Assembly: GCA_003327435.1 (NCBI GenBank)
Contig: QOQV01000002.1
Span: 1 to 64,000 of the forward strand
Origin: Ignavibacteriota bacterium
GTDB taxonomy: Bacteria > Bacteroidota > Ignavibacteria > UBA10030 > BY39
Reading direction: 5' to 3'
DNA: 64,000 nucleotides
Part shown: piece after piece, positions 11,112 to 48,011 of the stretch
Layout of the letters: every line of letters begins with the position of its first letter
Position numbering within the stretch: position 1 is the stretch's first letter
Made by a program: the position numbers and the translations under genes
The notes under the pieces: generated by a model
The model's database searches: none
The model's input: the letters and a program-made list of their open reading frames with translations, nothing else
What the model was told of the DNA's origin: nothing

Positions 11112-11159
11112 ATATTCATAGGTAATACAAACAATTCTGTATTTTTTCTAAACTATATC

Positions 11160-11190
11160 TTGATTTTTTTCCTGTAATACCTTATATTGA
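11160..11190 (+). promoter_or_regulatory. Predicted promoter of the lytic transglycosylase gene
   Basis: TTG at 11160-11162, a 20-base spacer, then TATATTGA at 11183-11190, 21 bases before ATG. A slightly degenerate version of the TTTG-N20-TATATTT pattern. Confidence 0.3.
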
Positions 11191-11211
11191 AATAAATTAT
11201 TTTTAAAATAG

Positions 11212-13371: not shown

Positions 13372-13444
13372 GATTTATTTTGTATTCTTCTTTAAATTTT
13401 CATATATTGATTTAACAAAATTTAAATATAATCGGAAAATTTAA

Positions 13445-15589: not shown

Positions 15590-15604
15590 AAAGGAATGTT
15601 AACA

Positions 15605-17839
15605 ATGAAAAATACTTTAAAAATAATTTTTGCTTTAATGATTTTATTTCAAGTTTCTTTGTCACAAGAATTATATCCATTAAAAAAGATTAGAGATATT
15701 CAATTTAAACCAATTGACTCTTTATTTTTAGCTGATCAGCTACAAAACAGCGTACCACAACGTTGGACTTTACAATCTTGCAATTTCTTGGGTGATACAG
15801 TGAGAATTGTTGGTGTTTGTGTCATTCCTCCAAAAGTTCTCACATACACAACCTTCGGTTACAATATGGTTGTTGCTGATACAGGTTATACTGGTGCTTT
15901 TGGTTATATATTTATAAGACCACCAATTTCAAGCACAACTAATCCAGGTGATACAATATATTATCAAAGCATACTTAATGTGGAAAGGGGGGACCTTGTT
16001 GAAATAGTTGGTAGAGTTTGGGATTTCCCTGGACCAGGTGAATCTGGTTTTCCGACTATGAATAGCATGACTCAAATAATTCCTTTAAGAGATCCAAATT
16101 TTACACTTTTGGGAACTGCTGAAGTACCACCTCCTATAAAGATGGAAACATCAGATTTTTATGAAGGAATTTTTCCTGGTGGTAAAATTAAATTTTCTAC
16201 AGGTGAACCTTTCGAAAGTGGGTATGTTGAGCTAACCAATTTGACTGTGAATTCCTGGTTAAATACAACAAATGGAACTGTAAACCTGATGGATGATTAT
16301 GGAAATATGATTTCAACCTATGATGCATCAAAATGGTGGACACTCAGAACATTCAGAGACCCGAATTCACCTTATACCTCAATTTTTCCAATTAATACTC
16401 GCATTGATACAATACGTGGTTGGATAACGACTGTATCTGGTTCTGAAAATCCGAGAGGTTATCGTATTGCTCCAGTATATACGAATGATGTCGTCATTGG
16501 TATCTCCCGTCCTCAAATATCATCTGTTAGAAGATATCCAGTTATAGTTACTCCAGATACCACAGCAAGGATTGAAGCTGTAATTAGGAAAAGTTACGGT
16601 GGGGTGGATGTTAGAGATAGATTAATATTTTATAGTTTTGACAACGGTCCTTTTATTGTTGATACAATGCAAGCAATTGTAAACGATTCTCTATATTATG
16701 GCATTATTCCTGCTCAACCACTTGGAACTTTTGTAAAATATTTTCTCAAAGCAGTTGATATTAACGACAACAGCACTATATCGGCGAGCGGTGCGGGTGG
16801 TGGGTTAGGTGCTGATACATCGAAAGGGTTCTATTTCTACAAAGTCACTGACGGAAACTTGACAATTAAAGATGTTCAATTTACTCCTTTTTCAAATGGA
16901 AGGAGTCCATTTGTAGGTGCTGTTACAACCGTTAGAGGTATCGTAACTGCTGATACAAGTGATATTGGTCCTTCTCCAAGGACATCTGGTGGTACAAGCT
17001 CCTGGTATCTGCAATCTGGAAATGCTCCTGCCTCTGGAATCTGGGTATATGGAATTATCCCAGAATTATATAATCTCCGAAAAGGAGATAGTGTCGCCAT
17101 AACTGGTACAGTTCAGGAAAACTTTGATGTTACAAGAATTGGTAATGTATCAGCAGTGGAAATTATCTCAAGCGACAATCCATTACCTGAACCTGTTAAA
17201 CTCACAACGGGAATATTCGGACCAAATGCTGGAAATGGTGATCTATTCGCCGAACCTTATGAAGGTATGCTTGTAGAATTTGATACTGTTACGGTAACAG
17301 ATATCTGGCCAACTTATGCAGATCCAACCGAATTCACTGTAAGTGATGGGACTGGTAATATTATCGTTAGGCGTGATGGTAAGAATTTTTATTCAAATGT
17401 TCAAAATGATACATTGTTTAATATGACGATTGTGAAAGTTGGTGATAAATTTTCCAAATTACGTGGTATAATTTTCTATAGTTTTAATAGATATAAAGTT
17501 TGTCCACGCACAAATGCTGATTTTGGTACATATTTGCCGACTTCCGTTGAAGATAAACTTGATGCACCAATACCTTTAAGATATGAACTTGCAAATAATT
17601 ACCCGAATCCGTTTAACCCCAAAACAACGATTGAATATGCACTTCCAAAAGAAGATTTTGTTACCTTGAAAGTATATAATCTATTAGGTCAAGAGGTTGC
17701 AACACTCAAGAATGAGTTTCAGAAACCAGGAAGATATAGAGTTACATTTGATGGTTCAAAATTTTCATCAGGCATTTATTTCTACAAATTGCAAACCTCA
17801 AGTTTCAATCAAGTTAAAAAAATGCTCCTTGTAAAATAA
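15605..17839 (+). CDS. Secreted T9SS protein with OB-fold-like domains
   Basis: A 744-residue exported protein. ATG 15605 is chosen over ATG 15596 because AAGGA at 15591-15595 abuts the earlier codon but is nine bases before the later one. The signal peptide ends near LSQE. Repeated segments such as VVGVCVIPPKV, AVTTVRGIVTADTSD and RKGDSVAITGTVQE look like OB-fold strands of the type found next to extracellular nucleases, but no nuclease active site was seen. The C-terminus is a classic sorting domain: NYPNPFNPKTTIEYALP, VYNLLGQEVATL, then SGIYFYKL and KKMLLVK. It lies 15 bases after the preceding gene in the envelope operon. Role unknown, probably surface binding. Confidence 0.78.
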   Translation: MKNTLKIIFALMILFQVSLSQELYPLKKIRDIQFKPIDSLFLADQLQNSVPQRWTLQSCNFLGDTVRIVGVCVIPPKVLTYTTFGYNMVVADTGYTGAFGYIFIRPPISSTTNPGDTIYYQSILNVERGDLVEIVGRVWDFPGPGESGFPTMNSMTQIIPLRDPNFTLLGTAEVPPPIKMETSDFYEGIFPGGKIKFSTGEPFESGYVELTNLTVNSWLNTTNGTVNLMDDYGNMISTYDASKWWTLRTFRDPNSPYTSIFPINTRIDTIRGWITTVSGSENPRGYRIAPVYTNDVVIGISRPQISSVRRYPVIVTPDTTARIEAVIRKSYGGVDVRDRLIFYSFDNGPFIVDTMQAIVNDSLYYGIIPAQPLGTFVKYFLKAVDINDNSTISASGAGGGLGADTSKGFYFYKVTDGNLTIKDVQFTPFSNGRSPFVGAVTTVRGIVTADTSDIGPSPRTSGGTSSWYLQSGNAPASGIWVYGIIPELYNLRKGDSVAITGTVQENFDVTRIGNVSAVEIISSDNPLPEPVKLTTGIFGPNAGNGDLFAEPYEGMLVEFDTVTVTDIWPTYADPTEFTVSDGTGNIIVRRDGKNFYSNVQNDTLFNMTIVKVGDKFSKLRGIIFYSFNRYKVCPRTNADFGTYLPTSVEDKLDAPIPLRYELANNYPNPFNPKTTIEYALPKEDFVTLKVYNLLGQEVATLKNEFQKPGRYRVTFDGSKFSSGIYFYKLQTSSFNQVKKMLLVK

Positions 17840-32340: not shown

Positions 32341-32371
32341 TTGAAATTCTGATTGTAATATATTATATTAC
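32341..32371 (+). promoter_or_regulatory. Predicted promoter of the Tol-Pal-like operon
   Basis: TTG at 32341-32343, a 20-base spacer, then TATATTAC at 32364-32371. The start codon is only nine bases further, so the first gene may be transcribed with almost no leader. Confidence 0.35.
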
Positions 32372-32379
32372 ATTAAGTT

Positions 32380-35300
32380 ATGAAAATTAAAAACAGATGG
32401 TATTACATATTGAGTAAGAAGATTATATCTTTATTGCTTTTTATTTTCGCATTATATTCATTCGTTTTTGCTCAACATCCTTTGCTTGAAGATAAAAAGA
32501 TAAATCTTAATCCTTTACAGGAAAGTAAAGAGCTAATCAATAATGGAATGTATCAGAAAGCACAATGGTTGCTTGAAGAATTTTTGCATAGCAGTGGTGA
32601 ATCTGAAAATAAATTTGAAGGTTACTATCTGCTCGTTTTATCATTTGTGGCTCAAAAAAAATATGAGGATGCTTATTTTACAAGCCAGGAATTGCTGAAG
32701 CAGAGTGTTCCAGAATATTATTCAACTCGTTTGCTTTATCTAAATGCAAACAGCGCTTTTTTTACAGATAGATTTAGTTCAGCAATTGAATCATTACAAA
32801 AGTTACTTGAGACATCTCGAGATAATGTAATTAAATTTAATTCATATTATTGGCTTGCAGCATCTTTTTTAAAAATTAATAATACAACTCAAGCTGAACA
32901 AAATATTCTTCTGGCATATCAGAATTATGATTCAAGCACATATGAGTATATTTATGATAATGTCGGTAAAGATGATGTGTTGTTCCTCTGGGCAGAAATT
33001 CTTGAACAAAAAGGGGACATTCAACAAGCCATAGCAAAACTGGAACAGCTAATTCGTGATTTTGAGAAAAGTGAATTGTCTGTTGATGCTAAGTTGAAAC
33101 TTGCAATTAACTTAATGAATATTGGTCGGTACGGTTCCGCTTTAAATCATCTGAATTCAGTGCAACCTAAAAAAGCCCAACAAAAAAGTTTATGGCTATT
33201 TTCAAAAGCTGAAGCTGAATACGCACTCGCAAATTACGAAATTGCATCCAAAGATTATAAATCATTCATAGCGAATTTCCCAGCAGGGAATCTAACCAGA
33301 AAAGCCAGATATGGTTTAGCCTGGTCGTACCTAAACTTAAAAGATTATCCTAATTCTGTAAAATATTTTAGGCAAACACTTGGTCAAAATGATTCATTAA
33401 CCGAAAGCTCACTTTTTCATATTGGGGTTTTGTTGAGTTTGTTGGACAGTACAGCATCTGCTGTTACAACTTTTGAGGAGTTAATTGAAAAATTCCCGTA
33501 CGGTCAATATACTGATAAAGCATATTATCAAATAGGTATGATTAGATTTAGAACGGGTCAATATCCTGAGGCAAGGCGAAGTTTTCAAATTGCGGCACGA
33601 CTTTTCCCAAATAGTGATATTCGTGCTGATTCTTACCGGATGTTAGGCGAATTAAGTTTAATTGTCGGTGATATATCTAACGCTCAGTTTGCTTTTGCTC
33701 AAGCTCAGAAGTTTTCAAAAGTTGATTCTCTCACAGCTACAGCTATGTTTCAGGAGGGTGTGGCACTTTATCAATTGGGCAGATTTAGAAGTAGCTCTGA
33801 AAAATTTTCTGAGTATGTCAGGAAATTTAAGAATCATAACAAATTTGCAGAAGGTTATTTCTGGTTGGCTGAAGCTTTATATCAGGATGGTAAGTATGGA
33901 GAATCGGAAAATGCATATTTGAATGCAGTTAAATTTTTAAACAGGGATAATCCTAAACGGATTTCTGCACTATATGGTTTGGCATGGACACTTTTTGAAC
34001 AGAAAAAGTTTCGTCAGGCAATAACTGCTTTTGACAATTTCATCGCCGAAAGTCCAAATGTAGCCGAAAAACTCGAAGCATCCCTTCGTAAAGCGGATTG
34101 CTATTTTTACTTGCGAGATTATGAAAATGCAACAAAAATTTATGCTTCATTGTCAGAAGATAAAAAGAATCAGCGGCTTGCTGAGTATGCAGCTTTTCAA
34201 CTGGCATTAGCTTATATCCAACGAGGTGAGATAACTAGAGGGATAGAACATCTTAAGAATTTTTTAAATAAATTTCCTGGTTCTATTTACTCGGAAGTTG
34301 TTCAGTTTAATATTGCCTGGGCATATTTTACAAACGAACAGTTTACAAACGCAAATGATGAATTCAATGTTTTCTTATCAAAATATCCTGAAAGTCAATT
34401 AATGCCAAGGGTACTTTTAAATAAAGGTGATGCTTTTTATAATCTCAATGAATACGATAGTTCAATAGTTTATTATAGGCGAGTAATTGAAGAATATCCC
34501 TCAAGTTTGTTACGAAGTGATGCAATTAATGGTTTGCAGTTTGCATATCAAGCACAGGGAAAATCATCAGAAGCCATTTCGGTTATCGAGGATTTAATAG
34601 CAAAGCAGTCAGATAACACAGCAAGTGAAGATCTGTTGATTCGAAAAGCAGATATACTTTTTGAGCAGGGTAATTTTGGCCAGGCAGCAAACGAGTATCT
34701 TAAAATTATAGGACTGCAAACCAGTGATTTGATTCAAGCAAAATCCTTATATCAACTTGGTAGATGTTTTGAGTATGAAAACAATCCTCAAAAATCAGCT
34801 GAGTACTTTAATTTAGTTATAAAAAAATATCCTGCGAGTGATTTCGCACCTCAATCCGCACTATCTCTTGCTTATCTTCTACAGAAACAAAAGCAATATA
34901 AGGAAGCAATTTATTATCTTCAGCTTTTTGAAACGGATTATCAAAGTTCACCACTTGTCTGGGAAGCAAGATATAATCTTGGAGTTGCCTTACTGAACCA
35001 GAAGGAACTTGATAATGCAAAAAAACAGTTTGAGAAAGTTATTGGTTTAGCTCCTTCCAATGAAGTATTTGCTTTTAGAAGCCGTTTACAAATTGCTCGT
35101 ATGCTTCAAAATCGTAAATTTTATTCTGCTTCAAATGATACTCTTACGGTTATTATTAACAATTTGAATGACGACATTGCAGCAGAAGCGCTATTGTTAA
35201 TGGGTGAAAATTATTTATTCCTCAAAGATCCAAAATCAGCGCTTGATGCTTTTAATCAAGTGGTGGAAGCATTTGCAAATTATCCACTTCTGGTTGAAAG

Positions 35301-35442
35301 AGCATTACTTGGTAGCGGAGAATGCTACGAAAGATTAAAAGATCGAAATCAGGCAAAAAAGATATATCAGCAAATTTTGCAAAATCCAATAGATCCAGCC
35401 GTGAAAAAAGATGCTGAGGAAAGATTAAGGAGGTTGAAGTGA
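32380..35442 (+). CDS. Large periplasmic TPR-repeat protein
   Basis: A 1020-residue protein with a signal peptide (about 1-31, FAQ). Almost the whole mature protein consists of tetratricopeptide-type helical hairpins, for example SAIESLQKLLETS, GQYTDKAYYQIGMIRFRTGQ and AKSLYQLGRCFEYENNPQKS. Many have the ...FPNSDIRADSYRMLGEL pattern of outer-membrane-lipoprotein/YbgF-like TPRs. It is the first gene of an operon with ExbB/D, TonB and OmpA-like genes. It occupies the position of CpoB/YbgF in a Tol-Pal layout, but is far larger. It probably scaffolds envelope proteins in the periplasm. It overlaps the next gene by four bases. Confidence 0.85.
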   Translation: MKIKNRWYYILSKKIISLLLFIFALYSFVFAQHPLLEDKKINLNPLQESKELINNGMYQKAQWLLEEFLHSSGESENKFEGYYLLVLSFVAQKKYEDAYFTSQELLKQSVPEYYSTRLLYLNANSAFFTDRFSSAIESLQKLLETSRDNVIKFNSYYWLAASFLKINNTTQAEQNILLAYQNYDSSTYEYIYDNVGKDDVLFLWAEILEQKGDIQQAIAKLEQLIRDFEKSELSVDAKLKLAINLMNIGRYGSALNHLNSVQPKKAQQKSLWLFSKAEAEYALANYEIASKDYKSFIANFPAGNLTRKARYGLAWSYLNLKDYPNSVKYFRQTLGQNDSLTESSLFHIGVLLSLLDSTASAVTTFEELIEKFPYGQYTDKAYYQIGMIRFRTGQYPEARRSFQIAARLFPNSDIRADSYRMLGELSLIVGDISNAQFAFAQAQKFSKVDSLTATAMFQEGVALYQLGRFRSSSEKFSEYVRKFKNHNKFAEGYFWLAEALYQDGKYGESENAYLNAVKFLNRDNPKRISALYGLAWTLFEQKKFRQAITAFDNFIAESPNVAEKLEASLRKADCYFYLRDYENATKIYASLSEDKKNQRLAEYAAFQLALAYIQRGEITRGIEHLKNFLNKFPGSIYSEVVQFNIAWAYFTNEQFTNANDEFNVFLSKYPESQLMPRVLLNKGDAFYNLNEYDSSIVYYRRVIEEYPSSLLRSDAINGLQFAYQAQGKSSEAISVIEDLIAKQSDNTASEDLLIRKADILFEQGNFGQAANEYLKIIGLQTSDLIQAKSLYQLGRCFEYENNPQKSAEYFNLVIKKYPASDFAPQSALSLAYLLQKQKQYKEAIYYLQLFETDYQSSPLVWEARYNLGVALLNQKELDNAKKQFEKVIGLAPSNEVFAFRSRLQIARMLQNRKFYSASNDTLTVIINNLNDDIAAEALLLMGENYLFLKDPKSALDAFNQVVEAFANYPLLVERALLGSGECYERLKDRNQAKKIYQQILQNPIDPAVKKDAEERLRRLK

Positions 35443-37040
35443 CGAGAATTATTTTCAAACTTATTTTCTTGTTCCCATTTTTATTGGTTGCTCAACAGCA
35501 AAAGGAAGAACAAAAGGAACTTCCAAAACTTGATATCCCTGAAATAACAATCGTAGGGAAAAAAGCTATTACATTACCATTTGCAAAAAAAGGTGAATAC
35601 AATATTATAGATTATGTTACCCCTCAAAAACCTGATTCATCAATGCTTGGTGTCAAACAGCTATTATTGGCTTCCGGAACAAGACATTATAGTGCAATTA
35701 ATTTCACTGAAAAACTGAATGGATATCTTGAAGCTGGTTTCGGAAACTTTTCTCGTGTTCATCTGCTTGGACTTATTCGCTATTCTGACGCCGTGTGGGA
35801 AGCTTCGTTAAGAACTGGTTATAATTCTACATCAGGTCATGTAAAAAACTCTGATGGAAATCGTTTTTCGATTGGTGTTGATTTTGGGACAATGATTAAT
35901 ACCGACAATGAATATTTGAGAAGTTTTCGTATTGTTAATCTTCTTGATTTTGCATCCGATAAATTTGGTATCTATGGTTTCAGGGATTCTACTGTGCGCC
36001 GTTCACGACAGATTTTAAGCTTTAAAACAAATTTAGCTTCATCAGAATTTAAGTCCATTTCGTTTAATTTCCTGCTTGGATTGAATTCCTTTAAGATTGA
36101 AGACAACGATAGATTTAATTCTTCAGTATTCTTACCGGAGTTCAGAATATCTTCATCTTTCAATGTTTCCAAAGTAAGCTTTTTATCTAAATTGTCGTAC
36201 GAAACATCGTTAATAAATTATTCCATTCCGACTGAATCACCGACTTTATTGCAAATTTCTCTTCTGTCACAAACCTATCTTAACGAAAATATTTATACAT
36301 CATTTGGTTTTAAATACATTAATGGTACTAATTCCGATGGTGGTTATCAAAGATTTTTTTATCCAGCTGGAATAATCAAGATAAATTTTGGTTCTAATTT
36401 AAAATTCTCAATCTGGTTTGAGCCTGATGTAATAAATAATTCATACATTTCTTTTATGCTCGAAAATCCTTTCCTGAGCCGCGAGTTGCTCCTGAGATTC
36501 TCTTTTAAACCTGTAAATCTTGGTGTGGGAGTGGACTATTCATATAAGTTTTTATCTTTATATACAAAATTATCGTATGCGAAACTTAACAATGCTTTTT
36601 ATCCATTCGTAAAGAATGAAGCAATATATTTAGGTTATGCAGATGTTGATGAATTTAAAATTGATATTAAGGGTATTTTTGAAATCACTAAACAAATTAA
36701 ACTTTATACAAATTGGGTTTATAACAACTCCAGAATGAAAAGTATAAAACAACAACTCTTTATGCGACCCGAATTTCAGATGCAAAATAAGATTGAGTAT
36801 GCTTTGGAATTTCCGTTAAAAGTTTTTCTGTCAGCTGACTATTACACTAAAAGGTTACTGGAGCAGTATCATAGTTTACCTGCTTATTTTGTTTTAGGAA
36901 TTGGAGCAAATACAAACATCATAAAGAAAACAATGATGAGCTTCGAATTAAATAATCTTTTAAATACAGATTACGATTATTTTTATGGTTATCCGGCACC
37001 TGGTGTAACATTAATGGTTAAATTTCAGTATAATTTCTAA
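35439..37040 (+). CDS. Outer-membrane beta-barrel protein, receptor-like without a plug
   Basis: A 533-residue exported protein starting at GTG 35439 within the TPR gene's stop (GTGA overlap). The signal peptide ends near LLVAQ. A segment PEITIVGKKAITLPFAKKGE (about 35-54) resembles the region before TonB-receptor barrels, but no plug domain is recognisable. The remainder is alternating aromatic beta strands ending FQYNF, as in outer-membrane barrels. A late motif (ELNNLLNTDYDYFYGYPAPG) matches the last strands of TonB receptors. The genes around it are TPR and ExbB/ExbD/TonB. Likely a small barrel partner of that energising complex; substrate unknown. Confidence 0.75.
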   Translation: MTRIIFKLIFLFPFLLVAQQQKEEQKELPKLDIPEITIVGKKAITLPFAKKGEYNIIDYVTPQKPDSSMLGVKQLLLASGTRHYSAINFTEKLNGYLEAGFGNFSRVHLLGLIRYSDAVWEASLRTGYNSTSGHVKNSDGNRFSIGVDFGTMINTDNEYLRSFRIVNLLDFASDKFGIYGFRDSTVRRSRQILSFKTNLASSEFKSISFNFLLGLNSFKIEDNDRFNSSVFLPEFRISSSFNVSKVSFLSKLSYETSLINYSIPTESPTLLQISLLSQTYLNENIYTSFGFKYINGTNSDGGYQRFFYPAGIIKINFGSNLKFSIWFEPDVINNSYISFMLENPFLSRELLLRFSFKPVNLGVGVDYSYKFLSLYTKLSYAKLNNAFYPFVKNEAIYLGYADVDEFKIDIKGIFEITKQIKLYTNWVYNNSRMKSIKQQLFMRPEFQMQNKIEYALEFPLKVFLSADYYTKRLLEQYHSLPAYFVLGIGANTNIIKKTMMSFELNNLLNTDYDYFYGYPAPGVTLMVKFQYNF

Positions 37041-37058
37041 AATTTTAAGGATGTAGCT

Positions 37059-37724
37059 ATGGATTTAATAACAATGTTTGTTAAAGGTGGTATAATGATG
37101 TATGCAATCTTGCTTACATCATTGGTAGCAGTTTACATTTTTATCGAAAGGTACTTAATTTTGAAGAAATCAAAACCCAGCACAGGCAGATTTGAAATGA
37201 GTTTGCGTATGATGTTGGGCAAAAACGATTTAGACCATGCGAAGGAATTTGCAATTCAGGATCGTTCACCATCTGGAAGAATTGTGCTTGCTGCTCTCGA
37301 AAAAGTGCATCATCATCCTGGAAGAGTTCGTGAAGCAATTGAAGATCAGGGCAGGGAAGAAGTGGCTCAATTAGAAAAACATTTGGGCATACTGGCTTCA
37401 ATTGCAGGAATTGCACCAATGCTCGGATTTCTTGGAACTGTACTGGGTATGATTGCAGCATTTCAAGCAGTCGCAGCTACTGGTGGTCAGGCATCCCCAG
37501 TTGAGTTAGCTGACGGTATATGGGAAGCTTTGATAACAACCGCTTTTGGATTGTTTGTTGGTATCGCTGCCTATGCCGCTTACAATTGGCTTGTCGCAAG
37601 AACTCAGGAAGTTGCAATTCAAATGGAAAGAATCGGAAGAGAAATCTTAGATATCATCGAAGAAGAATTGCATGCATCAAACAATTCTAAAACAAAAGTT
37701 AAAAATTTTGAGGAAGTGAAATGA
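37059..37724 (+). CDS. exbB: ExbB/TolQ-type proton channel protein
   Basis: A 221-residue inner-membrane protein with three helices: about 12-30, 108-137 (LGILASIAGIAPMLGFLGTV) and 150-180 (ALITTAFGLFVGIAAYAAYN). These match the MotA/TolQ/ExbB family, which couples the proton gradient to TonB or TolA. The Pro/Gly-rich second helix and the Thr-rich third helix are conserved. It overlaps exbD by four bases. Whether it belongs to the TonB or Tol subtype cannot be settled from sequence alone; the neighbour with a TonB C-domain favours ExbB. Confidence 0.92.
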   Translation: MDLITMFVKGGIMMYAILLTSLVAVYIFIERYLILKKSKPSTGRFEMSLRMMLGKNDLDHAKEFAIQDRSPSGRIVLAALEKVHHHPGRVREAIEDQGREEVAQLEKHLGILASIAGIAPMLGFLGTVLGMIAAFQAVAATGGQASPVELADGIWEALITTAFGLFVGIAAYAAYNWLVARTQEVAIQMERIGREILDIIEEELHASNNSKTKVKNFEEVK

Positions 37725-38122
37725 ACTTTCAGTTTCAAGCCCATAAAAAATATTTAAGTGCGTTTAATTTCTCTTCACTTACAGATATAGTACTATTGCT
37801 TCTGATTTTTTTTCTATTGACTTCAGTTTTTACGGTTATGCGGGGAATGGATATTACGCTTCCAAAAGCAACAACTGCACAACCTCCGCAAAAGAAAACT
37901 ATATCGGTTGCATACTCTAAAGACAAAAAACTTTTTGTGGAAGGTAAGCAAGTCACAAAAGAACAACTCGGAGAAAGTTTAAAAAAAATCTTTACTCCTG
38001 AACATCAAATCGTTATACAGGCAGATAAAAGTTTGATACTTGAAGAAGTTATTGAAATACTTGATATCGCTAAAGGTGTAGGTGCCACAAAATTATTTAT
38101 TGCAACTGAACAAGCAAAATAA
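37721..38122 (+). CDS. exbD: ExbD/TolR-type proton channel protein
   Basis: A 133-residue protein with one N-terminal membrane helix (about 20-38) containing the conserved proton-path aspartate, Asp22 in SLTDIVLLLLIFFLL, then ITLPKA and a periplasmic domain with QADKSL near its end. This is the standard ExbD/TolR build. Its start overlaps the exbB stop codon (ATGA) and its stop is one base before the TonB-like gene. It forms the channel stator with ExbB. Confidence 0.92.
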   Translation: MNFQFQAHKKYLSAFNFSSLTDIVLLLLIFFLLTSVFTVMRGMDITLPKATTAQPPQKKTISVAYSKDKKLFVEGKQVTKEQLGESLKKIFTPEHQIVIQADKSLILEEVIEILDIAKGVGATKLFIATEQAK

Positions 38123-38123
38123 A

Positions 38124-38837
38124 ATGGATAAGCAGTTTGAAATAACTTTATTAAATGAGAAGCAGATTCGTCTGATTTCAACTGCTGGAACTATAATTTT
38201 TCATCTTATCCTGTTCCTTCTGTTAGCATTACTAAGATTAAAATCGCCGCAACCTATGGAAATGATAGAACTTGAATGGGGAAGTAGTAGTGGTGCACCA
38301 AACCAAAGTTCTGTTCAGGAGCAAACGGAAATTCCACAGACAAAGACAGAAAAAGTTGTTGAAACAGGTGCTAAAGCCGAGAAAGCAAAAGTTGATTTAC
38401 CTGTTACAAAAAGTGAATCTGATGAATCAATTGCATTAAAGAACAAGAAAAAAGCAGATAAGATTGAACGAAAACCTTCGGAGGCAGTGAAGCCAGAACA
38501 TTCAAAAGTCCCGCGCGTTAATCGTTCCGCAGCTGCAGGTGCAGGAAAAACCACCGGTTATTCGATTGAATGGTCTGGTGTCGGCTTTAGAAAATTATTG
38601 AGTGGTAGAATGCCAGTTTATCCTGAAGGTACTGATAAAGAAATGCCAGTTGTGCTTCAGTTTACTGTTATGCCCGATGGAAGTGTAACCAGCATCGTTC
38701 CTGTTCGTAGAAGTGATGAAATTCTTGAACGCGAAGCAATTTCAGCTCTTAAAACCTGGCGCTTCGATCCTTTGCCTGCTCAATATGAGCAGGTACCGCA
38801 AATTGGTAAAGTAACTTTTAATTTTAAACTTGAATAA
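38124..38837 (+). CDS. tonB: TonB-like energy-transducing protein
   Basis: A 237-residue protein. ATG 38124 is chosen rather than an in-frame ATG at 38082 inside exbD because the downstream start gives a clean N-terminus and follows the exbD stop by one base. A membrane helix (about 20-38) contains a histidine (His27), as in the TonB family helix. A long Lys/Glu-rich periplasmic linker (about 45-145) follows. The C-terminal TonB domain (about 155-237) is indicated by VVLQFTVMPDGSVTSIVPVR and AISALKTWRFDPLP. It delivers ExbB/D energy to outer-membrane receptors, possibly the barrel protein two genes upstream. Confidence 0.9.
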   Translation: MDKQFEITLLNEKQIRLISTAGTIIFHLILFLLLALLRLKSPQPMEMIELEWGSSSGAPNQSSVQEQTEIPQTKTEKVVETGAKAEKAKVDLPVTKSESDESIALKNKKKADKIERKPSEAVKPEHSKVPRVNRSAAAGAGKTTGYSIEWSGVGFRKLLSGRMPVYPEGTDKEMPVVLQFTVMPDGSVTSIVPVRRSDEILEREAISALKTWRFDPLPAQYEQVPQIGKVTFNFKLE

Positions 38838-38870
38838 TTTAAAAAATAAATAAAAGAATGGAGATGATAT

Positions 38871-40748
38871 ATGAAAATAATTCTCAATTTTACTACTAGC
38901 ATCATAATTATTATTCTCTTCTTATTGTCAAGTTTGAATGGCTACGCCCAGGATGAATATGCACGGCCGCATTGGTGGTTTGGTGCCGGACTTGGCGCCA
39001 ATTATAATATTTATGGATTGGAACTTAAGAAACTGAATGATTCCTACTCTTCGCCTGAAGCATTCACCAAGGGCTCTGGCTTTGGTATTTTTGGAGCTGC
39101 ATTGATTGAATATAGACCTACTATTATGTGGGGTGGATTTTTAAATTTAGGATTCGATGGTAGAAGTGGAAAAATTTCAGATATCGATGTTGCAGGAAAA
39201 TATAAAATATCACCTGCGATAAATTATATTTCGTTAGAACCTAATCTCCGATTCAACCCAGCTGGAGAAGGATTCTTCTTATTCCTTGGTCCAAAACTCA
39301 ATTTTAATATTACAAAATCTTTTGATTATGAAACTCCAACAGAAAAAATTTCTGGCGATTTCAGTAATGTGCGCTCGACAAATTTTGGTGGACAAATAGG
39401 ATTGGGTTACGATTTACCATTAACATCACAGGAGAAAAATCTTCAAATTGTATTGGCTCCCACACTTGGATTACATTTTGGCCAGGGTGTTAGAGATATT
39501 GAAAAGTGGAATCTGACAACAGTTCGGTTTGGTATCCAGCTAAAATTTGGAAGCACCCCTATACAAAAAGAGGTATTAAAACAGGAAGTTGATTTTTCAA
39601 TTCAATCGCCACAGATAATTCCAGGCACAAGACGAGTATCAGAGACATTCCCGCTTCGTAATTATATTTTCTTTGATCAGAATTCAACAAAAATTCCATC
39701 CCGTTATATACAATTAAGTCCTGAACAGGCAGATAAGTTTAAAGAGGAAAATTTATTTGAACCAAAACTTCAACAACTTTCTGGAAGATCCGCAAGACAG
39801 ATGGAAGTGTATTATAACATACTTAATATTATAGGAGACAGAATGCGAAGATATCCGGATGCAATGATCAGTCTCATCGGTGCATCAAAACAGGGAAAGG
39901 ATACCGGCAAGGAAATGGCAAATTCTGTCAGAGAATACCTCGTTAATGTATTTGGAATAAATCCTGCAAGAATACTTACATTCGGAGTTGAAAAGCCGGA
40001 AATTCCTTCATACCAACCAGGCGGTACACGAGAATTGAGTTTGGTAATGGAAGAAGATAACCGTGTTGATATCAAAAGTGGTAACCTGGATCTCTTATTG
40101 CCAGTAAAAATTATAGCAATTCAGGAAGATCCAATTGATGCAGATGTAGTTTTCCAAGTAAATGATTCAAAAAACATTCTATCCTCATGGACATTACAAA
40201 TTACAGATGCAAAAGGCACTACTAAAACATTTGGACCTTTCATAACAAAACAGGAAAGAATTAGTGGAAACCAGATTTTAGGAAAAGAGGAAATTGGCGA
40301 TTATCAGATTGTTATGATTGGAAAAACTAAAGATGGTTCCACAATTACAAAAGAACAGAAACTTCGACTTGCCAAAGCAGAAGGTCCGGAAGAACAACCG
40401 GGTCTACGCTATAGTATCTTGTTTGAATTCGATCAATCTAAAACTGTTGCAACATATGAAAAATTCTTAAGCGAAGTTGTAGTCCCGACAATTCCTGAAG
40501 GTGCAAGTGTTGTTATTCATGGACATACTGATATTGTTGGTGAAGAGAGCCACAATTTGACGCTTTCTAATAACAGGGCTCAGGAAACAATGAATGTTAT
40601 TCAGAGGGAATTAAATAAAGCTGGTAAGAAGTATGTAAGATTTGATACTTATGGTTTTGGTGAGGATCCACGCCGTGCACCATTTGAGAATCGCTTACCC
40701 GAGGAAAGATTTTATAATCGAACTGTTATTATTGATATAATACCTTGA
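38871..40748 (+). CDS. OmpA-family outer-membrane protein with two OmpA-like regions
   Basis: A 625-residue exported protein (signal peptide about 1-26, GYAQ). Residues about 30-235 form a small beta-barrel-like region. Near 262-400 an OmpA-like region is recognisable (YIFFDQNSTKIPSRY, then IGDRMRRYPDAMISLIGA and SVREYLVNVFGINPARILT). A second, C-terminal OmpA peptidoglycan-binding domain spans about 515-620, with LFEFDQSKTVATYEKFL and IHGHTDIVGEESHNLTLSNN. An Ig-like segment lies between. It takes the Pal-like position at the end of the operon and should tie the outer membrane to peptidoglycan. It is followed by a perfect terminator. Confidence 0.88.
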   Translation: MKIILNFTTSIIIIILFLLSSLNGYAQDEYARPHWWFGAGLGANYNIYGLELKKLNDSYSSPEAFTKGSGFGIFGAALIEYRPTIMWGGFLNLGFDGRSGKISDIDVAGKYKISPAINYISLEPNLRFNPAGEGFFLFLGPKLNFNITKSFDYETPTEKISGDFSNVRSTNFGGQIGLGYDLPLTSQEKNLQIVLAPTLGLHFGQGVRDIEKWNLTTVRFGIQLKFGSTPIQKEVLKQEVDFSIQSPQIIPGTRRVSETFPLRNYIFFDQNSTKIPSRYIQLSPEQADKFKEENLFEPKLQQLSGRSARQMEVYYNILNIIGDRMRRYPDAMISLIGASKQGKDTGKEMANSVREYLVNVFGINPARILTFGVEKPEIPSYQPGGTRELSLVMEEDNRVDIKSGNLDLLLPVKIIAIQEDPIDADVVFQVNDSKNILSSWTLQITDAKGTTKTFGPFITKQERISGNQILGKEEIGDYQIVMIGKTKDGSTITKEQKLRLAKAEGPEEQPGLRYSILFEFDQSKTVATYEKFLSEVVVPTIPEGASVVIHGHTDIVGEESHNLTLSNNRAQETMNVIQRELNKAGKKYVRFDTYGFGEDPRRAPFENRLPEERFYNRTVIIDIIP

Positions 40749-40768
40749 AATAATTTTGTTTTATTGGA

Positions 40769-40797
40769 GGGTTGACTCGTTTGAGTCAACCCTTTTT
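40769..40797 (+). terminator. Rho-independent terminator after the Tol-Pal-like operon
   Basis: A perfect 10-base stem GGGTTGACTC (40769-40778) with GAGTCAACCC (40783-40792), a four-base loop GTTT, then a T5 tail. It ends the plus-strand operon facing the minus-strand glycosyltransferase gene. Confidence 0.95.
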
Positions 40798-42869: not shown

Positions 42870-45362
42870 ATGAAAATAAAAATGAGAAAAATTACTATCC
42901 TTTTTGTCATAATTCTTGCCGTTACAACAACACTTTTTTCTCAGCAAGAACAGTATACCATCGAACGACTTCTTGAATTAGCCCGCAGTGGTGGTCTCTC
43001 ACAATTTTCACCTGAGCAAATACGACTTAAAATTTCCCAGGCAGGACTCTCCGAAGCCGAAGCAATTCAGCTTGCAAAGGAAAAGGACATTGATCTCGAA
43101 CAATACCTCCGACAGGAAAGGGCTGCTCAAGCTACGATAACAACACCCACTGAAACAATGCTCGAGCAACAAAAACTCAGATTGCAAATCCCAATCCGTC
43201 CTAAAATAACGAATGTTCCGGCATTTAAAAATCGTGAAATTGCCGACACATTACCACCATTTGGCTTCGATTTGTTTCGGCTCTCACCAGCTGCTTTTGA
43301 ACCAAATATCAATATCCCAACACCTGCCTCATATCTAATCGGTCCTGGCGATGAAATTATTATAAATGTATGGGGACAAACACAACTAACCTACCAGTTA
43401 ACTGTAGCTCGCGATGGATATGTTGTGATACCAACAGTTGGTAAAGTTCAAATATCGGGACTCACAATTGATCAGGCAAAACAAAAACTCTTACAACAGA
43501 TGACACTTGTTTACGAGGGACTTCGAAATGGTGGACCTGATGCTAATACATTCCTGGATGTTTCGCTCGGTAAGTTGAGAACAATCCAGGTATTTGTTAT
43601 GGGTGAGGTAATTCAGCCTGGTGGTTATGCACTCAGCGGATTATCAACCGCTTTTACTGCATTATATTATGCCGGAGGACCTAATGTTAATGGTACTCTG
43701 CGAAATTTACAAATTATCCGTGATAATAAAGTTATTTCACAAGCCGATTTCTATGAGTTTGCTCTATATGGTAGAAAAACTGGAGATGTACGACTTCAGG
43801 ATGGAGATGTACTTTTCGTTTCACCAGCTGGTAAAAGGGTTGCAATCCACGGTAGCGTTATGCGTAACGCTATTTATGAATTAAAACAAAACGAAACCAT
43901 TTCTGACCTGATTAAAATGGCTGGTGGACTTGCATTTGATGCATATACCGACCGAATTCACATCGAACGGGTAATTCCATTCGAACAGAGAAATCAATAT
44001 TCAAAGAATTTCCTTGATATTGATTTAAATTTTAATTCAAAAGATGAATTGCTTTCAAGTAATTATTTACTTGAAGATGGTGATGTGGTATCAGTACTCT
44101 CAATTAACAGAGAGCGAGAAAATCTTGTCATAATTCAGGGAAATGTCTGGAAACCAGGAAAATATGCAATCACACCTGATATGACCGTGCGCGAGCTTAT
44201 ACTTAAAGCTGATAGCTTAAAAGAAAACACATTTATGGAAAAAGCCACAATTCTCCGCACTCGAATTGAAGATAAGAAGAAGGAAATTCTAAATTTTAAT
44301 CTCGCACTCGCACTCGAAGGAGATGAACAAAACAACTTAAAGCTTCAGCGACTTGATGTTGTCACGATTTATGATAGGGATTTCTTCATACCTCGCCATC
44401 CAGTAAAAATTTATGGCGCGGTAAACAAACCCGGAACTTATGAAAGAACCGAAGGTCTGACGGTCTCAGATTTAATAATCCTTGCTGGCGGTGTTCAAAC
44501 TGGAGCGGATCTCTCAAGAATTGAAGTTGCTCGCCTCGATACATCTAAAATTAAAAATATATCTAAGTTAATTTATACTTCACTACCAAACGATTACTGG
44601 AATGCTGATCGCTCCAGATGTATCCTGCTCGAAGATTTTGATGTGGTTTCAGTTCGTATGAAGCCTGAATTCAAAACAACAAAAACCGTTACAGTTCGTG
44701 GAGAAGTTAAATATCCCGGTACCTATGCTATTGAATTCGAAGGTGAACGACTTTCAAGTTTGATAAAACGCTTTGGTGGGTTTAAGGAAACTGCATATCT
44801 CGAAGGTGTACGCTTTTTCCGCTCAACAGCTGTTGGTGGTATCGACTTAAAGAATATCTCACAAACAGTAACTCAGGTTTTAGATACAACGGGAAGACCA
44901 CTTCCAGTTCCAATGCGTCTGGCTCAGGAAGATGTCCCAATTGATATTAGAGATGTATTAAGTAATCCAGGTGGAAGATCCGATTTGATACTTGAAGATA
45001 GCGATGAGATAATCGTTCCGCGCGATCCGGGTGTTGTCTATGTTCAGGGTCAGGTGCACCTCCCTTCATCTGTACCGTATAAAAAAGGTGCATCATTAAA
45101 ATATTATTTAAAACAAGCTGGGGGCGTTACACCCAATGGCGATGCTGATAATATCGTGGTAATTCTACCAAATAAACAAAAATGGGAATCCAGCGGATTC
45201 TTCCTTATTCCTGATCCAGAAATACTTTCTGGTTCTACAATAATGGTTCCGTTTAAGATGAAAGAGCCAAGCACAACCCTACAAACTTTGCGCGAATGGG
45301 CTTCAATATCACTCAGCACCGCAACAATTGGTGTACTTATCTGGCAGGTACTGAAAAAATAA
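42870..45362 (+). CDS. Polysaccharide export protein with six SLBB domains (Wza-like)
   Basis: An 830-residue exported protein (signal peptide to about 24, LFSQ), larger than Wza. A Poly_export domain at about 153-235 (SYLIGPGDEIIINVWGQTQL) is followed by six SLBB repeats, near 240, 322, 416, 509, 604 and 720. Typical cores are VFVMGEVIQPGGYALSGL, VKIYGAVNKPGTYERTEG and VTVRGEVKYPGTYAIEFE. A C-terminal hydrophobic helix (ISLSTATIGVLIWQVL) may cross the outer membrane. It should form the outer-membrane channel for the polysaccharide made by the downstream genes. ATG 42882 is an alternative start. Confidence 0.92.
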   Translation: MKIKMRKITILFVIILAVTTTLFSQQEQYTIERLLELARSGGLSQFSPEQIRLKISQAGLSEAEAIQLAKEKDIDLEQYLRQERAAQATITTPTETMLEQQKLRLQIPIRPKITNVPAFKNREIADTLPPFGFDLFRLSPAAFEPNINIPTPASYLIGPGDEIIINVWGQTQLTYQLTVARDGYVVIPTVGKVQISGLTIDQAKQKLLQQMTLVYEGLRNGGPDANTFLDVSLGKLRTIQVFVMGEVIQPGGYALSGLSTAFTALYYAGGPNVNGTLRNLQIIRDNKVISQADFYEFALYGRKTGDVRLQDGDVLFVSPAGKRVAIHGSVMRNAIYELKQNETISDLIKMAGGLAFDAYTDRIHIERVIPFEQRNQYSKNFLDIDLNFNSKDELLSSNYLLEDGDVVSVLSINRERENLVIIQGNVWKPGKYAITPDMTVRELILKADSLKENTFMEKATILRTRIEDKKKEILNFNLALALEGDEQNNLKLQRLDVVTIYDRDFFIPRHPVKIYGAVNKPGTYERTEGLTVSDLIILAGGVQTGADLSRIEVARLDTSKIKNISKLIYTSLPNDYWNADRSRCILLEDFDVVSVRMKPEFKTTKTVTVRGEVKYPGTYAIEFEGERLSSLIKRFGGFKETAYLEGVRFFRSTAVGGIDLKNISQTVTQVLDTTGRPLPVPMRLAQEDVPIDIRDVLSNPGGRSDLILEDSDEIIVPRDPGVVYVQGQVHLPSSVPYKKGASLKYYLKQAGGVTPNGDADNIVVILPNKQKWESSGFFLIPDPEILSGSTIMVPFKMKEPSTTLQTLREWASISLSTATIGVLIWQVLKK

Positions 45363-45379
45363 TTAATTAAAATATATAT

Positions 45380-46384
45380 ATGAATCAAGAAATATTAACA
45401 GAAAATAATCAATCACAAAATAAAAACACGGTTGATTATATTGAAATTCTATCACTCCTCTGGAAAAAAAGAAAAAGCATAATCCTGATAACTTTAATAT
45501 CCGGTGTCGTGTTTACATTGTTATCGTTTTTAATAACTCCTACTTATCTTTCTACTGCATCTATTCTTCCAGAGATGGATAAAGGTAAGCTTGGTCCGCT
45601 TGGCGATTTAGCATCGCTTGCAGGAATAAACATAGGTGGGGAAGTAATAATGGTAAAACTGTATCCTGATATCATTCAGTCGGAAGCAGTTTTAAAACCC
45701 GTTATAGAGAAGAAGTACAAATCTCGCTTTTTCGATAAACCGGTAAATTTGTATGAATATTTTGATATCGAAGAAGAAACGCCTCGCCGGACACTTGAAG
45801 TTGCATTAAAAACATTGAGAAAAAAATTGGATATTAATTTAAGTGCAAAGACGGGTTTGCTGACATATTCACTTGAAACACGGGATCCTGAAGTTACAGC
45901 CGAGATTTTAAACACAATAACACAGGAATTAAACAATTTTTTACTTACGAAGCGCACTACTAATGCTGGTGAACAAAAGAAATGGATAGAGAAGCGTCTG
46001 AAGGAAGTGGAAGAGGATTTAAAGAAGGCGGAAAACAATTTAAAGGAGTTTCGAGAGCGTAATCGTAGAGTTAGTGATTCGCCACAACTGTTATTGGAGC
46101 AGGAGCGTTTGGTACGAGAGGTTGGAATACAGACAAGTATATTCACGACATTGAAGCAGCAATACGAGGTAGCGCGGATTGAAGAGATTAAGAATGTTCC
46201 AATCATAAATGTACTTGATGAGGCAAAACCCGCTGCAAAAAAGAATAACCCTAAAAGAAGATTATTCGCATTATTCGGTTTGTTTTTGGGATTTGTGATT
46301 TCAACTGGAAATGTATTATTGCAAAGTAAATATAAACCAGTTATTCAAGAATATTTAGCTATTTTTAAAAGTAATAAAAAATGA
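45380..46384 (+). CDS. Wzz-like polysaccharide chain-length determinant / co-polymerase
   Basis: A 334-residue inner-membrane protein with the Wzz N-domain: an early segment DYIEILSLLWKKRKSIILIT, a first membrane helix (about 32-54), and LDKGK-like PEMDKGKLGPLGDLASL. A coiled-coil region (about 195-245, LKEVEEDLKKAENNLKEFRE) follows, then a second helix near 295-315. No tyrosine-kinase domain is present, so it is the short co-polymerase type. It follows the export gene by 17 bases and controls polymer length together with the Wzy-type protein at 49.3 kb. Confidence 0.9.
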   Translation: MNQEILTENNQSQNKNTVDYIEILSLLWKKRKSIILITLISGVVFTLLSFLITPTYLSTASILPEMDKGKLGPLGDLASLAGINIGGEVIMVKLYPDIIQSEAVLKPVIEKKYKSRFFDKPVNLYEYFDIEEETPRRTLEVALKTLRKKLDINLSAKTGLLTYSLETRDPEVTAEILNTITQELNNFLLTKRTTNAGEQKKWIEKRLKEVEEDLKKAENNLKEFRERNRRVSDSPQLLLEQERLVREVGIQTSIFTTLKQQYEVARIEEIKNVPIINVLDEAKPAAKKNNPKRRLFALFGLFLGFVISTGNVLLQSKYKPVIQEYLAIFKSNKK

Positions 46385-46503
46385 TTGGAGGTGAAATTAT
46401 AGATAAAATAAAAGCTTACACAGATAATGACAATAAAATTGTGTTTGCAAACATAATTTATTTTTTAAATTATGTTGAGGAAATAAAGAAATACTTAGAC
46501 TAA
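46381..46503 (+). CDS. Hypothetical 40-residue peptide after wzz
   Basis: The ATG overlaps the wzz stop codon (ATGA), and the frame runs 40 codons with an aromatic stretch (FANIIYFLNYVEEIKKYLD). It could be a coupled small gene or the remains of a lost gene. No family is recognised, and two other short remnants follow directly. Confidence 0.25.
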   Translation: MIGGEIIDKIKAYTDNDNKIVFANIIYFLNYVEEIKKYLD

Positions 46504-46505
46504 AA

Positions 46506-46550
46506 ATGAAAATTTTCCACCTCGCTAACATCTCACATATTCCAATTTAG
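46506..46550 (+). pseudogene. Possible N-terminal remnant of a glycosyltransferase or epimerase
   Basis: ATG 46506 opens MKIFHLANISHIPI and stops at TAG. The peptide resembles the first beta strand of Rossmann-type glycosyltransferases (MKIxHLANIS). Only 14 residues are left, so it can only be a remnant; identity is tentative. Confidence 0.3.
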
Positions 46551-46559
46551 TTTTTATAC

Positions 46560-46631
46560 ATGAAACCATTCATAAAAAATTGGTCCTATTTAGTTACATC
46601 TGATGTTATTAATAACTTTAAGGTTATTTAA
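46560..46631 (+). pseudogene. Possible N-terminal remnant of an oligosaccharide flippase
   Basis: ATG 46560 opens MKPFIKNWSYLVTSDVINNF and stops 23 codons on. That start is characteristic of Wzx-type flippases, which usually begin M-K-x-x-(L/I)-K-N-x-S-Y-L. The intact flippase gene starts six bases later, with a different N-terminus. It may be the stub of an earlier flippase replaced by recombination. Confidence 0.4.
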
Positions 46632-46637
46632 CATAAT

Positions 46638-48011
46638 ATGAATGTAATAAATCTGATGGTAGAAAAAATAACTGATTATTTTACCAAGGGGCATGGAAGA
46701 TCAATTATAATTAAAAGGAATATTCTAATATCTTTTATTTTGAAAGGCATTAGTGTAGTAATTAGTTTCATTATGGTACCCATAACATTAAATTATTTAA
46801 ATGTAGAACGATATGGAATATGGTTAACTCTAAATTCTATTATTAGCTGGTTTTATATTCTTGATATAGGATTAGGAAATGGTTTAAGAAATAAATTTGC
46901 AGAGGCGGTGGCACGGGGTGAAAAAGAATTAGCAAAAAAATATGTGAGCACAGCATATACAATTTTATTAATTATTATAATTTTCTTCTATGTATTTTTT
47001 CTATTTATAAATCCTCATATTGATTGGACAAAAATACTAAATACTAATAAATCAATGGATACAGAATTAATTAATTTAGTTTTAATTGTGGTTACATTTT
47101 TTTGTATCCAATTTATTCTGAAATTGATTGGGACTATTTATATTGCTGATCAAAAACCAGCATTGAGTGATTCGTTGAATGTTATCAGCAATGCTATATC
47201 TTTAATCATAATATTCATACTAACTAAGACGACAGAGGGCAACTTAATTTATGTAGGAGCAGTTTTTACAATATCACCAGTAATAATTTATTTATTAGCT
47301 AGTATAATATCATTTTCTACTATTTATAAAAGTTATAGACCTTCTATCTATTATATAGATTTTTCTAAAGTGAAAGATATTGGTTTATTAGGAATTAAAT
47401 TTTTTATAATTCAAATTTCTGGAATAGTAATATATTCAACAAGTAATATAATTATAACTCAAGTTTTAGGCCCTGCAGAAGTTACACCATACAATATTGC
47501 TTATAAATACTTTAACACGGTTATGATGTTTTTTATGATAATAATGACACCTTTCTGGAGTGGGTTTACTGATGCTTATAGTAAAAATGATTTTGAGTGG
47601 ATAAAGAGTACTATGAAGAAATTAAATAAATTTTCATTAGGTGTAATAATTATTGTTATAGTAATGATATTACTTTCCGATACAATATATAAGATTTGGA
47701 TAGGTTCGCAAGTAAAAGTACCTTTTTTATTGACTTTATTTATGGGTTTCTACATAATGATAATCAGTTGGGGAGCGCCATTTGTACACTTTATAAATGG
47801 TGTTGGTAAAATAAAACTTCAACTGTATTTTAGTGTATTTCAGGCAGTGGTTTTTTTGATTTTAGCGGTTTATTTTTCGAAATATCTTGGATATGGAAGT
47901 ATAGGTGTTATTACTGCAATGTGCATACCAATGTTACCATCAATATTTCTCTGGCCTATTCAATATAAAATGATAATTGAAAATAATAAATCGGGAATAT
48001 GGAATAAGTAA
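46638..48011 (+). CDS. Wzx-type polysaccharide flippase
   Basis: A 457-residue integral membrane protein with about twelve hydrophobic segments. The opening (IKRNILISFILKGISVVISF, then MVPITLNYLNVERYGIWLTL) is that of the MOP/PST flippase family. It moves undecaprenyl-linked repeat units across the inner membrane. The neighbouring Wzz, O-antigen ligase/polymerase-like gene and glycosyltransferases support this role. Visibly more A/T-rich than the housekeeping genes, like the following 10 kb. It shares one base with the next gene (TAATG). Confidence 0.9.
   Translation: MNVINLMVEKITDYFTKGHGRSIIIKRNILISFILKGISVVISFIMVPITLNYLNVERYGIWLTLNSIISWFYILDIGLGNGLRNKFAEAVARGEKELAKKYVSTAYTILLIIIIFFYVFFLFINPHIDWTKILNTNKSMDTELINLVLIVVTFFCIQFILKLIGTIYIADQKPALSDSLNVISNAISLIIIFILTKTTEGNLIYVGAVFTISPVIIYLLASIISFSTIYKSYRPSIYYIDFSKVKDIGLLGIKFFIIQISGIVIYSTSNIIITQVLGPAEVTPYNIAYKYFNTVMMFFMIIMTPFWSGFTDAYSKNDFEWIKSTMKKLNKFSLGVIIIVIVMILLSDTIYKIWIGSQVKVPFLLTLFMGFYIMIISWGAPFVHFINGVGKIKLQLYFSVFQAVVFLILAVYFSKYLGYGSIGVITAMCIPMLPSIFLWPIQYKMIIENNKSGIWNK

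Follow-up and report, generated by a model that had tools for sequence, protein, structure and literature searches.

In this study, we analysed a 64,000-nucleotide stretch from an Ignavibacteriota bacterium (NCBI GenBank assembly GCA_003327435.1, contig QOQV01000002.1, positions 1 to 64,000; hereafter the window) and found at positions 32380-40748, on the + strand, an operon of six genes. By open reading frame (ORF) calls and Pfam these encode a tetratricopeptide repeat (TPR) protein, an outer-membrane barrel, ExbB, ExbD, a TonB-like protein and an OmpA-domain protein, which is the order that a first-pass annotation of this DNA had read from it. The operon is real, conserved and, as far as we searched, undescribed: no description of it was found in the literature covered, which left subscription papers and preprints outside its scope. 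We read it as a trans-envelope, usually motor-driven tether that is Tol-Pal-like but no member of the Tol-Pal family, a putative function to which we give slightly better than an even chance. A 2025 survey could identify neither tol-pal loci nor pal genes in Bacteroidetes, puts PorE forward as a partial answer and expects further systems (PMC12204202). The operon may be a counterpart of the Tol-Pal system reported missing in Bacteroidota; it offers a concrete and widely conserved candidate for that gap, with a barrel that fits no Pfam or NCBIfam family well, and it makes outer-membrane attachment during division in Bacteroidota directly testable.

Conservation of the operon and its peptidoglycan-binding partner

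The comparison used 119 loci from 119 genomes, which were picked by the barrel alone and are a part of all barrel matches (numbers with L and f below denote loci and families). Because a TPR gene lies on the same strand and within 1.5 kb of the barrel in 104 of the 111 loci with at least 3 kb upstream, the cluster recurs far beyond chance; of the seven exceptions, five belong to f34 and one each to f20 and f32. Among the 89 loci with at least 7 kb on each side, all six functions were present in 37, a peptidoglycan-binding partner close to the barrel in 78 (73 with an adjacent TPR gene), any of ExbB, ExbD and TonB in 75, TonB in 68, SPOR in 68 and OmpA in 10. At the level of the 29 families sampled, 27 have an adjacent TPR gene, 18 a local ExbB and 22 SPOR or OmpA. 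The more conserved core is the TPR protein, the barrel and a peptidoglycan-binding protein, and the motor is not invariant. The first-pass annotation had asked for the conservation of the gene cluster to be mapped, and it proves to be retained across many families. In the window's order, matches to the barrel at 1e-20 came from 76 of 98 genomes (64 of 75 if only the good ones are counted), and a search of 19 genomes from 15 families with a Bacteroidia profile (A4) recovered it in eight, in one of these only as weak fragments. Since partial matches in Bacteroidia may be ordinary receptors, the phylum-wide matches (368/395) were not taken as counts of presence. Ten labelled relatives were metagenome-assembled genomes, named as Ignavibacteria, Bacteroidota/Bacteroidetes, Chlorobiaceae or uncultured bacterium.

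An OmpA-domain outer-membrane barrel is the peptidoglycan-binding partner in the window's family and in f2, while most other lineages have instead a SPOR protein (by Pfam), with its gene between the barrel and ExbB; SPOR is the usual partner, and the OmpA gene is specific to certain lineages. As a general rule, SPOR domains bind the peptidoglycan of the septum. A simple hydropathy scan gave one strong membrane helix in each of 74 operon SPOR proteins, and many lineages have an inner-membrane SPOR partner whose long cytoplasmic part is HU-like where this was tested and clear: L112 (11241-12911) and L117 (11208-13106) have an HU-type DNA-binding domain N-terminal to the helix, and L115 (7823-9073) has two HU-CCDC81 domains alongside SPOR. 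These HU-SPOR proteins possibly link the chromosome to the septal wall; on the more speculative reading given below, a single complex would join the nucleoid to the inner membrane, the septal wall and the outer membrane. Elsewhere in the window's genome there are three SPOR matches, one of which, L211, fits the operon-type SPOR profile (147.6 bits).

The barrel, its tail and the TPR protein

The window barrel matched no Pfam family, and in NCBIfam it hit receptor C-termini only, below cut-off. Within the 31 aligned barrels, the window's included, PF00593 (the TonB-dependent-receptor barrel) was matched by two (best 2.5e-10), OMP_b-brl by three and the Plug domain by none; six more barrels from other families matched no Pfam or NCBIfam model. 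The AlphaFold2 model of the window barrel, built on 11 sequences with a mean predicted local distance difference test (pLDDT) score of 76.5, has residues 1-89 disordered save for a short N-terminal helix, followed by 22 main strands (counted from the listed elements), and includes no plug. In a fold search (Foldseek, VIA), the top match was BtuB (VIA Z 24.6, 412 residues, 3.0 Å), and the 50 best matches were all receptor-type. Because TonB-dependent receptors match the fold and the model lacks a plug, the protein is, on the predicted structure, a TonB-dependent-receptor-type barrel without a plug. The plug-less barrel of the first-pass annotation therefore stands, given the absence of Plug matches and the 22-strand model, but its notion that a barrel simply takes the place of TolB does not, as the barrel is receptor-type and its tail bears a TonB-box-like motif.

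This motif, IPEITIVG (residues 33-40), ranks first of 526 8-mers for conservation among the 12 sequences of alignment A2 and second among the 31 of A1, being highly conserved despite predicted disorder. With a motif score trained on 32 motifs from the window's order, 50 of 80 held-out tails contained a match above 12 bits, versus 0.67% of shuffled tails; this held-out test was used in place of an earlier iterated score, which was dropped for its null of 11% at 7 bits. The strict box pattern occurs in 67 of the 119 tails (that of L035 is truncated), and we do not claim one identical motif in all tails. Ordinary receptors of the same genome carry the similar motifs QEVVVIG and QEVVVTA ahead of the plug (the two with a readable N-terminus among eight receptor loci examined). 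In genus g11 (L042, L063, L064), TPR, barrel and SPOR are kept, but the tail has no box and ExbB, ExbD and TonB are not found locally; we set aside a joint loss of box and motor there as weak evidence because it comes from a single lineage.

For the TPR protein, AlphaFold2 (mean pLDDT 88.3) confirmed a solenoid, with helices from 45 to 1019, and the fold gave no functional clue. The YbgF model TIGR02795 scored 294.1 bits against a cut-off of 90.1, summed over 11 generic TPR stretches, the CpoB model NF008068 reached 82.9 of 383 bits, and the PorW/SprE model of the type IX secretion system (NF052312) missed its cut-off with 112.7 of 250 bits. At L173, a 1708-aa ORF with a TPR match (10723-15849) adjoins the barrel and may be a TPR protein that has been fused or extended. 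Three f32 loci (L193, L194, L200) have a TPR-barrel gap of about 1 kb, no motor genes nearby and VNVVK-type tails.

A dedicated motor and its loss

The window's genome has two ExbB genes, that of the operon and that of a general ExbB-ExbD-ExbD-TonB set at L073 (7433-10415; own genome, C22), where a small ORF, similar to an anti-sigma-antagonist (STAS) protein, is followed by ExbB, two ExbD and TonB (PF03544, 8.6e-20). With the general set elsewhere in the genome, the ExbBD-TonB complex beside the plug-less barrel is indeed a dedicated one, as the first-pass annotation had it. The Asp of the ExbD membrane segment is present in 56 of 56 relatives, and the membrane helix of the operon's TonB-like protein carries TIIFH. 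A transmembrane His is described as essential for the motor interactions of TolA and TonB (PMC12204202). In 78 operon TonB proteins, the helix His was found in 46 of the 49 with a local ExbB versus 12 of the 29 without.

Forty genomes were searched with the operon ExbB, and 29 of them have no copy beside the barrel. Because 28 of these 29 keep only the distant general type, the dedicated motor has been lost, not moved; in the 29th (G087), an ambiguous ExbB fragment of 44% identity lies at a contig start. All nine genomes with a local ExbB contain an operon-type copy (about 1e-54 or better) and a general one, and two Flavobacterium-like genomes (f32) gave intermediate matches. Seventeen loci, all from genomes among these 40, lack both ExbB and the TonB His, and the box-like motif is kept in 17 of 17. 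Thirteen lie in f10, f11, f14 and f21 (L122, L123, L124, L126, L129, L173, L174, L177, L179, L181, L182, L184 and L190) and four in a subset of f6 (L043, L165, L167 and L168). The TonB-like proteins of these loci are candidate unpowered tethers. The f2 genomes without a local ExbB have kept the His and may use the general motor. Since the 17 loci keep the box without the dedicated ExbB and the His, tethering is favoured over transport and would outlive energisation; on the more speculative reading given below, the retention of box, transducer and barrel in motor-less lineages suggests that static tethering is the core function. On that reading these lineages also suggest how a TonB system could become Tol-like. 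Versions with and without a motor occur naturally and are open to comparison.

Relation to known systems

The operon resembles Tol-Pal in design but is not one of its members; it has a Ton-family motor and a novel type of outer-membrane partner. Both have a motor driven by the proton motive force, a transducer, a TPR protein and a peptidoglycan-binding outer-membrane protein in one operon, and in both force would be passed to an outer-membrane partner via a flexible N-terminal strand, putatively so in the operon. Unlike Tol-Pal, the operon has neither TolB nor a Pal lipoprotein, its transducer ends in a TonB-type C-domain, its outer-membrane partner is a receptor-type barrel, and its TPR protein has about 1000 aa whereas CpoB is far shorter. 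The window's genome, 98.6% complete, gave no match to TolB (PF04052), so the absence of TolB from the cluster extends to the genome, and a canonical tolB-pal locus was looked for elsewhere and not found, with no tolB and no second OmpA-domain gene. A hidden TolB was accordingly rejected for this genome. Weak TolB_N matches occurred in 14 of 100 relatives; the two best of these, which were examined, are CsgG/LpoB-type without a propeller match. L142 (1138-2334) and L143 (967-2172) each encode a protein of about 400 aa that combines TPR with a CsgG/LpoB-like part, sets off the TolB_N model and could be misannotated as TolB.

The genome's only OmpA-domain gene is that of the operon, and its N-terminus has no Cys lipobox; of the OmpA/Pal-like protein first annotated, the OmpA domain holds and the Pal lipoprotein does not, the product being an OmpA-type barrel. 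The operon scored 103.1 of the 221 bits needed for the tolQ equivalog and 54.7 of the 127.3 needed for tolR. At the C-terminus of the transducer, TonB_C (PF03544) was found instead of a TolA-type domain, with TIGR01352 at 38.0 bits versus a cut-off of 27.1, in agreement with the TonB-type C-domain annotated earlier.

The Ton-system domains ExbB, ExbD and TonB are all over their Pfam cut-offs. Like the Ton system with BtuB or FhuA, the operon combines ExbB-ExbD-TonB with a predicted 22-strand barrel and a TonB-box-like tail; unlike Ton transporters, its barrel is plug-less, its motor is dedicated, and TPR and SPOR or OmpA partners recur beside it. A TonB-type force would thus act on a barrel with nothing to gate. 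The genome has 12 Plug-domain matches, so ordinary receptors exist in it as well.

PorE is a proposed outer-membrane-wall tether of Bacteroidetes that, like the operon, has TPR and OmpA domains and would fill the Tol-Pal gap; unlike the operon, it is a single fused lipoprotein that includes a TolB-like domain, and it has no motor genes (PMC12204202). PorE was rejected as the local answer, as the window's genome has no full-length PorE and one weak match (5.6e-5, below cut-off), and none of the 100 relatives was over the cut-off. The same source mentions force transducers of the vWA type that occur with TPR and TolQ/R-like genes, likewise an uncharacterised motor-transducer-TPR cluster (PMC12204202), whereas the operon has a TonB-like transducer and a plug-less barrel as partner.

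Proposed function and alternatives

In the proposed mechanism, the proton gradient would drive ExbB-ExbD, to which the TonB-like protein would couple through its transmembrane His. This protein would span the periplasm and add a β-strand to the box in the flexible tail of the barrel, which for want of a plug is not an ordinary TonB-gated transporter, and pulling or holding the tail would draw the outer membrane toward the wall and the inner membrane. TolA binds the TolB N-terminus by strand addition, structurally like TonB and the TonB box (PMC7391070); by analogy, such a handle on a barrel with no plug to move would most simply serve to pull or hold the membrane. The TPR and barrel genes are the tightest pair, so the TPR solenoid is probably docked on the barrel. 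The peptidoglycan-binding partner, OmpA-type here and SPOR elsewhere, would set the machine on the wall, the SPOR partner presumably at the division septum. Of the two roles that the first-pass annotation had offered, envelope maintenance fits the putative function better than transport. More speculatively, and in our view doubtfully, the missing Bacteroidota equivalent of Tol-Pal could be a TonB-type motor of nutrient uptake diverted to hold or pull the outer membrane via a plug-less receptor barrel.

Several observations weigh against the tether. A plug-less 22-strand barrel would leak unless filled. The box is read as such by resemblance, so that binding is putative and a motif argument; Bacteroidia account for most motif misses, and their variant tails EIEIVK, EITVEK and VNVVK score weakly. 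The association of His with ExbB (Fisher p 5e-7) ignores relatedness. Because ExbB, ExbD and TonB are all absent nearby in 14 of the 89 well-flanked loci, including 5 of 6 in f32, energy is not universal. Profile A4 missed the barrel in 7 of 15 families (f25, f26, f28 (0/5), f30, f41, f43 and the tested f44 genome), although the barrel is present in other f44 genomes (L112, L113), so the sensitivity of A4 is limited and absence is unproven. Finally, a pal-like gene, a tolA and a tolB have been named in Cytophaga hutchinsonii, where deletion of tolA or of tolB left growth as in the wild type (PMC5891637).

TPR-plus-barrel exporters such as AlgK/AlgE and BcsC are familiar. A dedicated transport machine, with the open barrel as a channel for export or import, the TPR protein as periplasmic gate or substrate adaptor and ExbBD-TonB opening it, would explain why TPR and barrel form the tightest pair and why the barrel has a transporter fold, and the ORFs downstream in the window (42870-48011), which by sequence we take to be polysaccharide-export-like (an SLBB-type export protein, a chain-length regulator and a flippase), would suit it. 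We nevertheless consider transport unlikely: flanking genes vary between families with no constant substrate gene beside the cluster, the usual third member is a peptidoglycan-binding partner, and lineages that have lost both the dedicated motor and the TonB His still retain box and barrel. An outer-membrane biogenesis accessory, in which TPR protein and barrel insert or scaffold proteins or lipoproteins while TonB and SPOR coordinate this with wall growth, agrees with the wide conservation and with TPR repeats matching BamD/CpoB-type models (BamD TIGR03302, 146.6 bits versus a cut-off of 81.4). The BamD and YbgF scores are, however, summed over many generic TPR stretches, and the barrel's closest folds are receptors, which leaves this explanation improbable.

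The Myxococcus Agl-Glt gliding complex has a TolQ/R-type motor, TPR and TonB-like domains and outer-membrane barrels, a parts list similar to that of the operon as far as shared domains go. A comparable motility or adhesin-moving engine seems very improbable all the same, since the AgmX/PglI C-domain match (7.1e-4) is weak, at 19.6 versus 40 bits, and falls behind the TonB model. Least credible of all is an ordinary Ton system that powers the genome's many transporters and has TPR, barrel and OmpA as chance neighbours. The Plug-domain matches give such a system receptors to serve, but a second ExbB-ExbD-ExbD-TonB set exists, relatives keep the general type when that of the operon is lost, and synteny too wide for chance largely contradicts it.

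Arrangement of the operon in the window

The features are listed in Table 1, in which the length of the TPR protein agrees with the about 1000 residues first annotated. The barrel starts with GTG, overlapping the TPR stop, and the ends of ExbB and ExbD overlap too. For the TonB-like protein, the ATG at 38124 is a more likely start than the ORF opening at 38082. By Pfam, nadA lies upstream of the operon.

Table 1 Features of the operon and their coordinates in the window
Feature	Position	Strand	Evidence
Weak promoter-like site	32341..32369	+	Consensus match alone; 41 such sites in the region versus 34.5 expected
TPR solenoid protein, 1020 aa	32380..35442	+	Pfam TPR families, best 9.6e-74; N-terminal helix signal-peptide-like
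Predicted plug-less receptor-type (TBDR, TonB-dependent receptor) outer-membrane barrel, 533 aa	35439..37040	+	AlphaFold2, VIA, Plug-free relatives
IPEITIVG codons, residues 33-40, TonB-box-like	35535..35558	+	8-mer conservation and held-out motif score
ExbB/TolQ-type motor subunit, 221 aa	37059..37724	+	PF01618 5.7e-33; genome has only two
ExbD/TolR-type motor subunit, 133 aa	37721..38122	+	PF02472 2.9e-26
TonB-like transducer	38124..38837 (ORF from 38082)	+	PF03544 5.4e-11; membrane helix with His and TonB C-domain
Outer-membrane protein with N-terminal barrel and C-terminal OmpA domain of peptidoglycan-binding type, 625 aa	38871..40748	+	PF00691 2.8e-10, PF13568 2.1e-7
Terminator-like stem-loop after the last gene	40766..40795	+	13 pairs, 6 G-C, T-rich tail next

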